A stretch of 43,758 nt of DNA from assembly GCA_036491125.1 (NCBI GenBank), contig DASXCO010000025.1, positions 1-43,758 of the forward strand, written 5' to 3'. Within the stretch, counting starts at the first letter, position 1. The number at the start of each line of letters is the position of its first letter. This document shows positions 13,501-21,252 of the stretch, one piece after another. The DNA is from Acidimicrobiales bacterium. Lineage in GTDB: Bacteria; Actinomycetota; Acidimicrobiia; Acidimicrobiales; AC-9. The notes under the pieces were generated by a model. The model saw only the letters and a list, made by a program, of their open reading frames with translations, made no database searches and was not told the DNA's origin. The position numbers were made by a program, and so were the translations under genes.

Positions 13501-13968
13501 TCAGCCGCCGAGGTCGACGATGGTGACCTTGAGGGTGCCGCCCGGGGCCTTGTACTCCACGGTGTCGCCCGGCCGGTGCCCCATCAGAGCCTGCCCGAGG
13601 GGCGAGCCGGGCGAGACCACCGAGGCGTCGTCCCGGCGTTCCTCGATGGAGCCGACGAGGTAGCGCTCGACGCTCTCGTCGCCCTCGTAGCGCAGGCTTA
13701 CCACGGCGCCGGCGGTGACAGCGCCGTCGGCACTGGAGCCGTCGACGATGACCGCAGAGCCGAGGAGGACCTGGAGCTGACGGATGCGGTTCTCCATCTT
13801 TCCCTGGCTGTCCTTGGCCGCGTGGTAGTCGGCGTTCTCGGACAGGTCCCCCAGGGCCCGGGCCGCCTCGATAGCCCGGGCGATCTCCACCCGGCCCCGG
13901 CTGGTCAGGTCGTCGAGCTCGGCTTGGAGCCGCTCGTAGGTCTTTGGAGTGAGGTGTGTCTCGCTCAC
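13501..13968 (-). CDS. greA: Transcription elongation factor GreA
   Basis: 155 residues, the usual GreA length. The N-terminal coiled coil carries LGDLSENADYHAAKDSQGKM, including the acidic tip that reaches the RNA polymerase active site to stimulate cleavage of backtracked RNA. The C-terminal FKBP-like domain has SPLGQALMGHRPGDTVEY. I take the GTG at 13968 (MSETHLTPKTYERL) as the start, since the longer frame adds unrelated residues. It is divergent from the leuB leader. Confidence 0.93.
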   Translation of the reverse strand: MSETHLTPKTYERLQAELDDLTSRGRVEIARAIEAARALGDLSENADYHAAKDSQGKMENRIRQLQVLLGSAVIVDGSSADGAVTAGAVVSLRYEGDESVERYLVGSIEERRDDASVVSPGSPLGQALMGHRPGDTVEYKAPGGTLKVTIVDLGG

Positions 13969-14027
13969 CCGGTCGAGGCTATCGGCAAGGGCAGCCCCGC
14001 CGTCCAGCCCAGCCCAAGGCAACCGGG

Positions 14028-14056
14028 TTGACGGGTGATCGCTGCTGGGCGACACT
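14028..14056 (+). promoter_or_regulatory. Promoter of the leuB-ilvE-cimA operon
   Basis: TTGACG at 14028-14033, a 17-base spacer, then GACACT at 14051-14056. The -35 is strong and the -10 moderate. The expected RNA start is about 14062-14066, which coincides with the GTG of the leader peptide, so the leader would be translated from a leaderless end. Confidence 0.5.
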
Positions 14057-14065
14057 TGCTTCGCT

Positions 14066-14098
14066 GTGACCGCCACCCAGGTATCGATCATTCCGTAG
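14066..14098 (+). CDS. Leader peptide of the leuB operon
   Basis: A 10-residue frame starting with [13 protein letters not shown], then TAG. It has one Val and two adjacent Ile codons placed just before an RNA hairpin and terminator. That is the usual design of ribosome-mediated attenuation for branched-chain amino acid operons. No Shine-Dalgarno is seen, but the predicted transcription start falls on or just before the GTG, and actinomycetes translate leaderless RNAs efficiently. Ile codons fit an operon that contains cimA, an isoleucine-pathway gene. Confidence 0.55.
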
Positions 14099-14152
14099 GC
14101 GCACACCCTCCGGTGTGTGCCTCGTCGACCGTCCACGCAGTGGGCGGTTTTT
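14099..14152 (+). terminator. Attenuator: pause hairpin, antiterminator and intrinsic terminator
   Basis: Hairpin 1:2 pairs 14099-14107 with 14112-14120 (9 bp with one G-U, loop CUCC). Terminator 3:4 pairs 14129-14136 with 14140-14147 (8 bp with one G-U, loop GCA), followed by TTTTTCATTTT. Region 2 can instead pair with region 3 (14114-14119 with 14134-14139), which excludes both other stems. A ribosome stalled at the Ile codons (14087-14092) would cover region 1, so the antiterminator would form and leuB would be transcribed. Confidence 0.7.
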
Positions 14153-14171
14153 CATTTTCTCGGGAGCAAAG

Positions 14172-15200
14172 TTGACCCCACACAAGGTGGGCCTCATAGG
14201 CGGCGACGGTATCGGGCCGGAAGTCGTCGCCGAGGCCATGAAGGTCGTGTCCGCCGTCGGCGTGCGGCTGGACACGGTCGACTACGACCTGGGGGCAGCG
14301 CGGTACCTGCGTACGGGTGAGGCCCTGCCCGACAGCGTGCTGGACGAGCTTCGCAGCCTCGACGCCGTCTTCCTCGGCGCCGTCGGGCCCCCGTTGGGCA
14401 GCCGCGACGTGCCACCGGGTGCGCTCGAGCGGGGACTGCTGCTCCGGATGCGCTTCGAGCTCGACCTCTATGTCAACCTGCGGCCCTTCATCGGCCTGCC
14501 CGGGACCGCTCGAGGCCCGATCGATCTCGTCGTGGTCAGGGAGAACACCGAGGGCACCTACGCCGGAGAGGGCGGCTTCCTCCGTCGTGGTGGACCACTC
14601 GAGGTGGCGACCCAGGGGTCGGTCAACACCCGCTTCGGCGCCGAGAGGTGCGTGCGCTTCGCTTTCGATCTGGCCCAGCGCCGGCCCCGGCACCACCTCA
14701 CTCTGGTGCACAAGACCAACGTCCTCACCTTCTCCGGCGACCTGTGGCAGCGCACCTTCGACGAGGTGAGCGCCGAGTTCCCCGGAGTGGACACGGCCTA
14801 CAACCACGTGGACGCGGCCTGCATCTATCTGGTGGAGGACTCGCAACGCTACGACGTGGTGGTCACCGACAACCTGTTCGGCGACATCATCACCGACCTC
14901 GCCGGCGCCGTGGCCGGCGGGATCGGCCTGGCCGCCTCGGCCAATCTCAACCCGGCGCGCACCGGCCCCTCGCTGTTCGAGCCGGTCCACGGCGCGGCCC
15001 ACGACATCGCCGGCACCGGTCGGGCCAACCCGCTGGCGGCCATCCGCTCTGCGGCGATGATGCTGGACCACCTGGGCGAGGCCGATGCCGCCGCCCGCAT
15101 CAGCAAGGCGGTGCTCGACCAACTGTCCGAGTCCGCCTCCACAGGAGCGACCTTGGGAACCACCGCCGAGATCGGCGATGCCATCGCAGAGAGGGTGTAG
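14172..15200 (+). CDS. leuB: 3-isopropylmalate dehydrogenase
   Basis: A 342-residue member of the isocitrate/isopropylmalate dehydrogenase family, which oxidises 3-isopropylmalate with NAD to give the leucine 2-oxoacid precursor. Visible blocks are [16 protein letters not shown], the substrate-binding [13 protein letters not shown], the catalytic K of HKTNVL, the metal-binding [15 protein letters not shown] and the NAD loop [18 protein letters not shown]. The start is TTG, with GGGAG eight bases upstream; the frame is open further upstream, but that part is the attenuator. Its stop is two bases from ilvE. Confidence 0.93.
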
Positions 15201-15202
15201 CC

Positions 15203-16126
15203 ATGCCGATCACACCGAGCGAGAAGATCTGGATGGACGGCGAGATGGTCGACTGGGATCAGGCCAAGATCCACGTCCTCACCCACAGCCTCCACTACGG
15301 ATCCGGTGTCTTCGAGGGGATCCGCGCCTACGCCACGCCCAGGGGACCCGCGGTGTTCCGCCTTGGCGAGCACATCACCCGCCTATTGGGCTCTGCCAAG
15401 GTCTTCCTCATCGACATCCCCTACAACCACGAGGAGCTGGTCGCCGCGACCAAGCAGACCGTGCAGGTGAACGGGCTCGAGTCCTGCTACATCCGTCCCA
15501 TCGCCTACCTCGGCTACGGCGAGATGGGTCTCAATCCGCTGCCCTCAGAGGTCAACGTCGCCATCGCGGTCTGGCCGTGGGGCAGCTATCTGGGCGAAGA
15601 GGGCGTGGCCTCGGGGGTGCGGGTCAAGATCAGCACCTGGCTGCGTCACGATCCCAACGCCATTCCCACCGCGGTCAAGGCGACGGGCATGTACATCAAC
15701 TCGTCCATGGCAAAGGTCGAAGCCCTCAAGGCCGGCTACGACGAAGCGGTCATGCTGTCGCCGCGGGGACATGTCAGCGAGTGCTCGGGGGAGAACCTGT
15801 TCGTTGTCAAAGGGGGCCGCCTCCTGACCCCTCCGCCCAGCGACGGCGCCCTGGAGGGCATCACCCAGGCCTCGGTGGTGACGATCGCCCGCGACCTCGG
15901 CTATGAGGTCGGGGTGAGTACCCTCCATCGCAGTGACCTGTACACCGCGGAGGAGGCCTTTCTCACGGGGACGGCCGCCGAGGTGGTCCCGATCTCCTCG
16001 GTGGACGACCGGTCCGTGGGCGACGGACGTCCCGGGCCGATGACCCGGAGCATCCAAGAGACCTATTTCGCCACCGTGCGAGGCGAGATCGACCGGTACA
16101 AGGACTGGCTCGACCATGTCGGCTGA
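15203..16126 (+). CDS. ilvE: Branched-chain amino acid aminotransferase
   Basis: A 307-residue fold-type IV PLP enzyme that performs the last step of Leu, Ile and Val synthesis. It has the start pattern EKIWMDGEMVDWDQAKIHVL, HSLHYGSGVFEGIRAY, the PLP lysine in TAVKATGMYINS, ECSGENLFVV and LTGTAAEVVPI. The length suits the bacterial IlvE (about 300) type. Its last 11 bases overlap the start of cimA. Confidence 0.93.
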   Translation: MPITPSEKIWMDGEMVDWDQAKIHVLTHSLHYGSGVFEGIRAYATPRGPAVFRLGEHITRLLGSAKVFLIDIPYNHEELVAATKQTVQVNGLESCYIRPIAYLGYGEMGLNPLPSEVNVAIAVWPWGSYLGEEGVASGVRVKISTWLRHDPNAIPTAVKATGMYINSSMAKVEALKAGYDEAVMLSPRGHVSECSGENLFVVKGGRLLTPPPSDGALEGITQASVVTIARDLGYEVGVSTLHRSDLYTAEEAFLTGTAAEVVPISSVDDRSVGDGRPGPMTRSIQETYFATVRGEIDRYKDWLDHVG

Positions 16127-17843
16127 GCGCCCGCCCGTGCCGCCCGCGGCGGTCGACATCTACGACACGACGCTGCGCGACGGCAGCCAGCAGGAGGGCT
16201 TGTCGCTGAGCGTGGACGACAAGCTGAGGGTGGCCCAGCAGCTCGATCACCTTGGCGTCCACTACATCGAGGGTGGCTACCCGGGGGCCAACCCCAAGGA
16301 CGAGGAGTTCTTTCGCCGGGCGCCCGACGAGCTGGGGCTGGCCACGAGCACCCTGGTGGCGTTCGGCTCCACCCGGCGCCCGGGAGCTCGGGCGGACACC
16401 GATCCGTCCCTGCGCCAGCTCGTCGAAGCGGGGACGGGAGTGGTCTGCATCGTCGCCAAGGCCTGGGACTATCACGTCACCGAGGCGCTGCGGACGTCGC
16501 TGGACGAGGGCATCGCCATGGCCGCCGACTCCGTCGAGCTCCTGCGGCAAGCGGGCCTGCGGGTGTTCCTGGACGCGGAGCACTTCTTCGACGGGTACCG
16601 GGCCGATCCGGGCTTCAGCCTGGGTGTGATCGAGGCCGCGCAGCAGGCGGGAGCCGAGGCCCTGGTCCTCTGCGACACCAACGGCGGCACTCTGCCCCAC
16701 GACGTCGAGCGCGTGGTCGCCGAGGTCGCCTCGCGCACCGGGGCCAAGATCGGCATCCACGTCCACAACGACGGTGGCTGCGCGGTCGCCAACTCGCTCG
16801 GTGCGGTGCGAGCGGGCGCCACCCAGGTGCAGGGTTGCATCAACGGCTACGGCGAGCGCGTCGGCAACGCCGATCTCAGCGCCGTCGTTCCCAACCTGGC
16901 CCTCAAGATGGGTGTGCAGACGATCCCGCTCGATCGCCTCGAGCGACTCACCGCCGCGTCCCACCACGTCGCCGAGCTGGTGAACATCACGCCCGACCCG
17001 CAGCAGCCCTACGTGGGCGCGTCGGCGTTCGCGCACAAGGCCGGCCTGCACGTCAGCGCCATCGCCCGTCGATCGGACGCTTACGAGCACGTGTCGCCCG
17101 ATTCGGTGGGGAACGGTACCCGGTTCGTCGTCAGTGAGCTGGCCGGGCGCTCGACGCTCAGCATCAAAGCGGCCGAGCTGGGCCTCAACCTCGACGGCGT
17201 CGCACTGGGCGAGGTCCTCGACACCCTGAAGCGCCTGGAGCACCAGGGCTACCACTTCGAGGCGGCCGACGGCTCGCTCGAGCTGCTCATGCGCCAGGCG
17301 ACAGGCTGGCGGCAGTCGTTCTTCGACGTGGAGTCGTTCCGGGTGATCACCGAGCACCGGCCCGACCAGACGGCACAGCGGGATGCCGGGCCGACGGCGT
17401 CCGCCGGGTCGGCTGACCGGGTCGATCTCGGGCCACCGAGCTTCGAGAGCATGACGACCGAGGCGACCGTCAAGGTGCACGTGGCCGGCGAGCGCATCGT
17501 CGCCACCGCCGAGGGGAACGGGCCGGTGCACGCCCTCGACGCTGCGTTGCGGAATGCCATCGGCCCGCGCCTGCCCGGCCTGGCCCGATTGCACCTGACC
17601 GACTATCGCGTCCGGGTCCTGGACACTGCCCAGGCCACCGGCGCGGTGACCCGGGTGCTCATCGACAGCACCGACGGCGAGCGGTCCTGGTCGACCATCG
17701 GGGTGTCGGAGAACATCATCGAGGCCAGCTGGCAGGCCCTCGTGGACTCCATCGTCTACGGTCTCGTCCACAATGCCGGCCCGGGAGGCCGGCCGGAGGA
17801 CGAAGCCGGCCCGGGAGGCCGGCCGGAGGACGAGGCGGGATGA
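16116..17843 (+). CDS. cimA: Citramalate synthase
   Basis: 575 residues. An N-terminal HMGL-like TIM barrel (about 12-280) opens with YDTTLRDGSQQEGLSLSV and has metal-ligand HVHNDGGCAVANSL. The linker and a C-terminal allosteric LeuA-like dimer domain follow (about 445-560, TVKVHVAGERIVATAEGNGP). The IEGGYPGANPKDEEFF stretch is typical of the CimA branch rather than LeuA. It condenses pyruvate and acetyl-CoA to citramalate, giving a threonine-independent route to 2-oxobutyrate and isoleucine. The last 20 residues are an in-frame tandem repeat. The start overlaps ilvE by 11 bases. Confidence 0.9.
   Translation: MSAERPPVPPAAVDIYDTTLRDGSQQEGLSLSVDDKLRVAQQLDHLGVHYIEGGYPGANPKDEEFFRRAPDELGLATSTLVAFGSTRRPGARADTDPSLRQLVEAGTGVVCIVAKAWDYHVTEALRTSLDEGIAMAADSVELLRQAGLRVFLDAEHFFDGYRADPGFSLGVIEAAQQAGAEALVLCDTNGGTLPHDVERVVAEVASRTGAKIGIHVHNDGGCAVANSLGAVRAGATQVQGCINGYGERVGNADLSAVVPNLALKMGVQTIPLDRLERLTAASHHVAELVNITPDPQQPYVGASAFAHKAGLHVSAIARRSDAYEHVSPDSVGNGTRFVVSELAGRSTLSIKAAELGLNLDGVALGEVLDTLKRLEHQGYHFEAADGSLELLMRQATGWRQSFFDVESFRVITEHRPDQTAQRDAGPTASAGSADRVDLGPPSFESMTTEATVKVHVAGERIVATAEGNGPVHALDAALRNAIGPRLPGLARLHLTDYRVRVLDTAQATGAVTRVLIDSTDGERSWSTIGVSENIIEASWQALVDSIVYGLVHNAGPGGRPEDEAGPGGRPEDEAG
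17775..17834 (+). repeat. Tandem 30-bp duplication at the 3' end of cimA
   Basis: Two 30-base units (17775-17804 and 17805-17834) differ at one position. They encode two copies of AGPGGRPEDE at the very C-terminus of citramalate synthase, just before the stop that overlaps the next gene. Because the unit is a multiple of three, the frame is preserved. Other strains may vary in copy number. Confidence 0.9.
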
Positions 17844-21090: not shown

Positions 21091-21165
21091 TCGGGGGTGG
21101 TGTAATCGGCAACACTGCAGGTTCTGGCCCTGCCATTGGGGGTTCGAGTCCTCCCCCCCGAGCCA
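21091..21165 (+). tRNA. tRNA-Gln (anticodon CUG)
   Basis: The acceptor stem TCGGGGG/CCCCCGA, anticodon stem GCAGG/CCTGC with loop TTCTGGC, and T-arm GGGGG-TTCGAGT-CCTCC all fold. The discriminator is G and the CCA end is encoded (21163-21165). The anticodon CUG reads Gln. It starts 58 bases after the gltX stop. Confidence 0.95.
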
Positions 21166-21179
21166 ACGATCGCCAACAC

Positions 21180-21252
21180 GGCCCCATCGTCTAGAGGCCG
21201 AGGACATCACCCTCTCAAGGTGGAGACACGGGTTCGAATCCCGTTGGGGCTG
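21180..21252 (+). tRNA. tRNA-Glu (anticodon CUC), integration target
   Basis: 73 bases: acceptor GGCCCCA/TGGGGCT (first pair G-U), the conserved GTCTAGAGGCC D-arm, anticodon stem TCACC/GGTGG with loop CTCTCAA (CUC), and T-arm ACGGG-TTCGAAT-CCCGT. CCA is not encoded (CTA follows). The part from 21211 on is supplied by the integrated element, which restores an intact tRNA. Confidence 0.95.

Follow-up and report, generated by a model that had tools for sequence, protein, structure and literature searches.

Leader-peptide attenuation of branched-chain amino acid (BCAA) operons is already known in actinobacteria at ilvB (PMC1262725, PMC10272879, PMC11857589, PMC13236596). The closest described systems are the ilvB leader attenuators of Mycobacterium tuberculosis (ilvB1; PMC13236596), where a uORF with LVVI codons proved functional when its codons were mutated, and of Corynebacterium (ilvB-II motif, C. 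glutamicum ilvBNC; PMC10272879, PMC11857589), the leader ORF of C. glutamicum being nearly leaderless. To these can be added the ilvB leaders predicted by Seliverstov et al. in 2005 (PMC1262725). In the open literature searched, we found no report of an attenuator for leuB or cimA, for the class Acidimicrobiia, or built on the shared scaffold described below. The leader described here occupies positions 14028 to 14152 of a 43,758-nucleotide stretch (the window, contig C25 of a 3.8-Mb assembly in 251 contigs) from an Acidimicrobiales bacterium, immediately before a leuB-ilvE-cimA operon (Table 1).

Table 1. Features of the leader, its operon, and neighboring genes in the window
Feature	Position	Strand	Basis
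Sigma-70-type promoter: TTGACG (14028-14033), 17-nt spacer, GACACT (14051-14056)	14028..14056	+	Sequence; matching elements, equally spaced from the leader start codon, in relatives
Leaderless leader-peptide ORF, GTG ACC GCC ACC CAG GTA TCG ATC ATT CCG TAG (10 codons; GTG start at 14066, TAG stop at 14096-14098), ending Val-Ser-Ile-Ile-Pro-stop	14066..14098	+	Sequence; BCAA codons occupy -5 to -2 of the peptide across 168 classified loci
Control codons relative to the stop: Val (GTA, 14081) at -5; Ile (ATC) at -3 and Ile (ATT) at -2 (14087-14092)	14081..14092	+	Operon-specific codon identity, rare-codon enrichment
Hairpin 1:2, AGGCGCACACC/GGUGUGUGCCU, loop CUCC, its base being the AG of the UAG stop (11 bp, 14097-14107/14112-14122)	14097..14122	+	Fold; covariation
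Intrinsic terminator 3:4, GACCGUCCAC/GUGGGCGGUU (10 bp, 14127-14136/14140-14149), followed by a U-run (T-run in DNA)	14127..14152	+	Fold; covariation
leuB ribosome binding site, GGGAG	14162..14166	+	Sequence
leuB, 3-isopropylmalate dehydrogenase	14172..15200	+	NCBIfam NF002898, 483.8 bits, above cut-off
ilvE, branched-chain aminotransferase	15203..16126	+	NCBIfam NF005146, 427.1 bits
cimA, citramalate synthase	16116..17843	+	NCBIfam TIGR00977, 666.1 bits
greA, divergent from the leader	13501..13970	-	
Two tandem tRNA genes	21091..21252		Rfam matches

The original prediction, that the element is a ribosome-mediated attenuator of leuB-ilvE-cimA, is supported by the identity of the three genes, named by NCBIfam equivalogs, and by the conservation of the codons and hairpins. 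We consider it highly probable that the element controls transcription of the operon in a codon-dependent manner by sensing charged Val- and Ile-tRNA. As to the direction and size of the regulation, we infer that the operon is very probably switched on by a shortage of charged valine or isoleucine tRNA. Transcription would begin at or beside the GTG, and a 70S ribosome would translate the leaderless 10-codon ORF behind RNA polymerase; by default, the strong terminator 3:4 would end transcription before leuB. Were Val- or Ile-tRNA short, the ribosome would halt within codons -5 to -2, and the polymerase would continue into leuB-ilvE-cimA.

The promoter that had been proposed is present in the window and recurs in relatives, as does the leaderless start of the predicted 10-codon peptide with its Val and Ile-Ile. 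About 83 of 136 leaders have -10-like hexamers 6 to 10 nt 5′ of the start codon, and almost nowhere else, and TTGAC is positioned 31 to 34 nt 5′ of the leader start codon, the choice of that codon in relatives being heuristic. From this spacing we infer that transcription starts at or adjoining the leader start codon. The TTG start of leuB lies about 20 nt downstream of the leader element, and leuB is followed by ilvE in 43 of the 45 relatives with enough flanking sequence. In several relatives, a greA-like gene starts at the same upstream place as the greA of the window.

When 40 relatives were searched at the DNA level, the alignments in several families already included the leader. A covariance model built from 13 leuB leaders (alignment A2) matched 204 of 298 genomes in the order and 33 of 60 in a class-wide sample. 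In a phylum sample 56 of 296 genomes were matched; the clear matches (E below about 1e-6) were fewer, and those outside the class were few and confined to a few other lineages. Low-scoring phylum matches that were inspected (about 20 to 25 bits) appear to be due to chance, the weak ones in Streptomyces-like genomes (up to about 25 bits) falling in unrelated sequence, and the large Streptomyces-sized genomes sampled gave no clear match to the model. Exact-pattern matches in Nocardiopsis, Streptomyces, Sphingomonas, Chloroflexi, and Hydrogenedentota scored poorly with the covariance model, and one in Agreia was not scored by it at all. Named records with the motif are mostly metagenome assemblies of Acidimicrobiia or Acidimicrobiales, including “Candidatus Microthrix”; one motif-bearing genome record carries the label Ferrithrix. 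Rfam, including its T-box and riboswitch families, gave no match at the gathering score and nothing relevant up to an E value of 10. The genome of the window itself holds a second copy of the leader, before ilvB (locus L075, G000:C223:14785-14856), with the peptide MPARDTLVVIT*. At another locus (L292, G354:C11), a leader ending in VLLIT* lies upstream of a region with a prephenate dehydratase-like ORF.

Except for a first set of leuB leaders, loci were found through their RNA structure irrespective of the gene, and the downstream gene was assigned afterwards. This gave 168 classified loci: 122 before leuB, 32 before ilvB, 12 before cimA, and 2 before leuA-type genes (one assigned by an NCBIfam match above cut-off, the other by similarity only). 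The codons at -5 to -2 differ between these types. They are mainly Ile and Val in leuB leaders (I 0.52, V 0.30, L 0.01), almost exclusively Ile in stand-alone cimA leaders (I 0.96, in runs of three or four), Val and Leu with some Ile in ilvB leaders (V 0.51, L 0.32, I 0.15; Leu-Val-Val-[Ile] and similar), and Leu before leuA (L 0.75; Leu-Leu-Leu). Leu is present in 27 of the 32 ilvB leaders versus 5 of the 122 leuB leaders (Fisher P = 4e-20), and Val in 105 of the 122 leuB leaders versus none of the 12 cimA leaders (P = 1e-9); these P values are overstated, related loci not being independent, but the pattern nonetheless runs across many families. In leuB leaders, Ile occupies position -2 in 113/117 (97%), with a BCAA codon at -1 in only 15%. 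For all of these loci, the stop-codon register is partly set by the model that located them.

Codon usage at these positions is also unusual. GTA makes up 64% of the leader Val codons versus 3.3% in the downstream genes, an enrichment of about 20-fold, and ATT makes up 39% of the leader Ile codons versus 9.8%, an excess as expected for control codons. The family thus has a short ORF whose codons match the end product of the pathway under control, and this natural codon swapping provides the best evidence for attenuation. CimA yields citramalate, by way of which pyruvate and acetyl-CoA enter isoleucine synthesis, and LeuB acts both in this citramalate route and in leucine synthesis; because of these roles, control of leuB-ilvE-cimA by valine and isoleucine makes sense. 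Leu codons account for just 5 of 488 control positions in leuB leaders, which supports isoleucine rather than leucine as the likely signal, as first suggested, with valine to be added as a second one.

Both hairpins and the U-run were found in the window as predicted, the intrinsic terminator lying between the ORF and the first gene, and the two-hairpin segment is far more stable on folding than shuffled sequences (z = -6.67; 0/200). Both also covary. Among 100 relatives, changes on both sides were seen at 10/10 consensus pairs of hairpin 1:2 and at 8/9 of terminator 3:4, i.e., at 18/19 pairs together, in a model-based alignment of 100 sequences that is biased towards the structure of its model. 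The both-side-change cells numbered 169 versus 38 in shuffles, with none of 500 shuffles as high; as a control for the alignment bias, pairings slid out of place were only 31 to 51% paired, against 96% for the true register. Conservation in relatives, to which the original prediction had tied its own fate, hence extends to the peptide codons and to both hairpins. The GCGCAC/GUGCGC stem of hairpin 1:2 is kept beyond what pairing requires. Terminators differ by operon type (alignment A3), being ACCGUCCAC/GUGGGCGGU for leuB with a conserved U-G wobble (retained in 71 of 80), GCCGCCC/GGGCGGC for cimA, and ACCUCCC/GGGAGGU for ilvB, the latter two likewise conserved.

How a halted ribosome would let the polymerase pass can be read in several ways. 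That hairpin 1:2 antiterminates by crowding, without alternative base pairing, is possible and is the reading that we tentatively prefer. A ribosome at codons -5 to -2 would leave hairpin 1:2 formed or half formed, and this hairpin, a stationary ribosome, and a polymerase at the U-run would together leave too little RNA for the terminator hairpin. A ribosome at the stop would instead cover the 5′ arm of hairpin 1:2, so that more single strand would remain and the terminator hairpin could form. The leading edge of a ribosome is taken to lie 12 nt past the A site, in line with toeprint distances. With this edge, an A site at -5 to -2 leaves the free part of hairpin 1:2 stable (-20 to -6 kcal/mol), whereas an A site at -1 or the stop abolishes it. 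The slack, i.e., the single-stranded nucleotides between the ribosome and polymerase active sites (P site to RNA 3′ end) with the terminator formed, is 27 to 32 nt in the former positions and 40 to 44 nt in the latter, a two-state pattern alike in leuB, cimA, and ilvB leaders, with a -2/-1 boundary that moves by one codon if the edge is set at +9 or +14. Reviews place collided ribosome-polymerase complexes at 26 to 34 nt, with an upper figure of 37 nt, and coupled complexes at 41 to 47 nt (PMC10953045, PMC11711091), so that the shorter slack falls in the collided range; the collided form has been called sterically incompatible with termination hairpins (PMC7858274). Crowding would account for BCAA codons filling positions -5 to -2 but not -1. 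However, the link was fitted post hoc to the anatomy, with spacing numbers from Escherichia coli and not from this class, and the E. coli thr and leu leaders have a slack of 33 nt with the ribosome at the stop, a terminating state. Either a slack of 33 nt does not necessarily forbid termination, or the ribosome may already be gone. The broader reading, a lineage-wide attenuator family lacking any antiterminator pairing, in which the stop-codon hairpin and the stalled ribosome would consume the RNA between ribosome and polymerase and so exclude the terminator, must be regarded as doubtful; if true, codons one step closer to the stop would fail as control codons.

Hairpin 1:2 could also be an antiterminator, as has been modeled for ilvB of C. 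glutamicum and M. tuberculosis, by a direct, non-crowding effect, for example, through competition at the hairpin bases or because RNA polymerase or some factor contacts the GCGCAC/GUGCGC stem. The topology is the same, i.e., a leader ORF, a stop-adjacent hairpin, and a terminator immediately behind, and the conservation of the stem sequence beyond pairing also speaks for such an effect. We nevertheless regard it as unlikely, since the two hairpins do not overlap here but are separated by a linker of 4 to 9 nt, region 3 has almost no partner in the stalled states, and no binding factor is known.

A classical trp-type switch, in which a ribosome at the Ile codons covers region 1, 2:3 pairs, and the terminator is blocked, corresponds to what was originally predicted and appears quite improbable. 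The letters of the proposed 6-bp 2:3 antiterminator (UGUGUG/CACGCA) do exist in the window, where some 2:3 pairing is possible once region 1 is covered (probability 0.37 with the A site at -2 and 0.54 at -1 or the stop), but they need a terminator loop CGCA that is confined to close relatives and a few others and is absent from most relatives. The possible family-wide alternative, seven pairs between GGYGUGCG and CGUCCACC, has a mismatch fixed in the middle, its central pair failing to form in 99 of 100 sequences. Its covariation is no higher than in shuffles, its pairing probability is near that of shuffled sequence (0.49 versus 0.43), and its median energy is -3.4 kcal/mol versus -15.0 for 3:4, which is retained in all full-length folds. 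The claim that a ribosome at the Ile codons covers region 1 stands in part: with the +12 edge, a ribosome stalled at the second Ile reaches stop+6 and so hides roughly half of the region 1 arm, whereas one stalled at Val or at the first Ile hides hardly any of the arm or none. In keeping with the classical switch, it is the most highly conserved codon (Ile, -2) whose stall covers region 1 the most; a stall at -5 (the first Ile of cimA leaders, the Leu of ilvB leaders), in contrast, leaves region 1 free.

In ribosome-masked folds, the terminator dominates every full-length case, and region 3 has next to no pairing when the stall is at -5 to -3 and pairs in part with region 2 at later positions, its upstream pairing in the window rising from 0.06 at -5 to 0.54 at the stop. 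An interaction between the codon region and the terminator arm was also considered (about 0.2 without a ribosome) and rejected, since in each stalled state the ribosome sits on those codons. Four E. coli leaders (thr, trp, leu, and his) were folded as a method control. The first three tie up the terminator arm upstream when the ribosome is at the main control codons (mostly 0.53 to 0.82) and leave it free at the stop, and his did not discriminate between ribosome positions. Because the window is the reverse of the thr, trp, and leu controls, and a 2:3 antiterminator exclusive with 3:4 and available on stalling was not found, a classical trp-type switch is not supported. Finally, a chance ORF ahead of a constitutive terminator, with no regulation at all, is barely conceivable given that codon identity tracks the downstream pathway in 168 loci and that the rare GTA is enriched about 20-fold in leaders.

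The family amounts to a natural experiment at the level of a regulon. Within the Acidimicrobiia, whose members are mostly uncultured, a single RNA scaffold has been given different codons to suit control by leucine, by isoleucine, or by a mixture. If the absence of an antiterminator holds, ribosome position alone can decide termination, and the leader would then be a simple test bed for transcription-translation coupling.

Among known systems, the E. coli trp, thr, leu, and his attenuators similarly have control codons, matching the amino acid that they regulate, a short distance ahead of a terminator; the present leader differs from them in that a 2:3 antiterminator is not supported and that the terminator arm is free in the stalled state. 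The LEU element, which precedes leuA in Actinobacteria (PMC1262725), likewise comes with a Leu-containing leader ORF ahead of a leucine gene, but it forms a pseudoknot at the Shine-Dalgarno box of leuA, whereas the present family is a hairpin-terminator pair. With the actinobacterial ilvB attenuators our leader has in common a short ORF, Leu/Val/Ile codons, a hairpin at the ORF end, and a terminator directly behind. The C. glutamicum hairpins share 3 nt, and the Corynebacterium/Mycobacterium ilvB type has an antiterminator base overlapping the terminator; the hairpins described here, 4 to 9 nt apart, do not overlap. The family also belongs to another class, is found before leuB, cimA, and leuA and not just ilvB, and is built, unlike the known ilvB attenuators, on a common stem, UAGCGCAC...GUGCGC.
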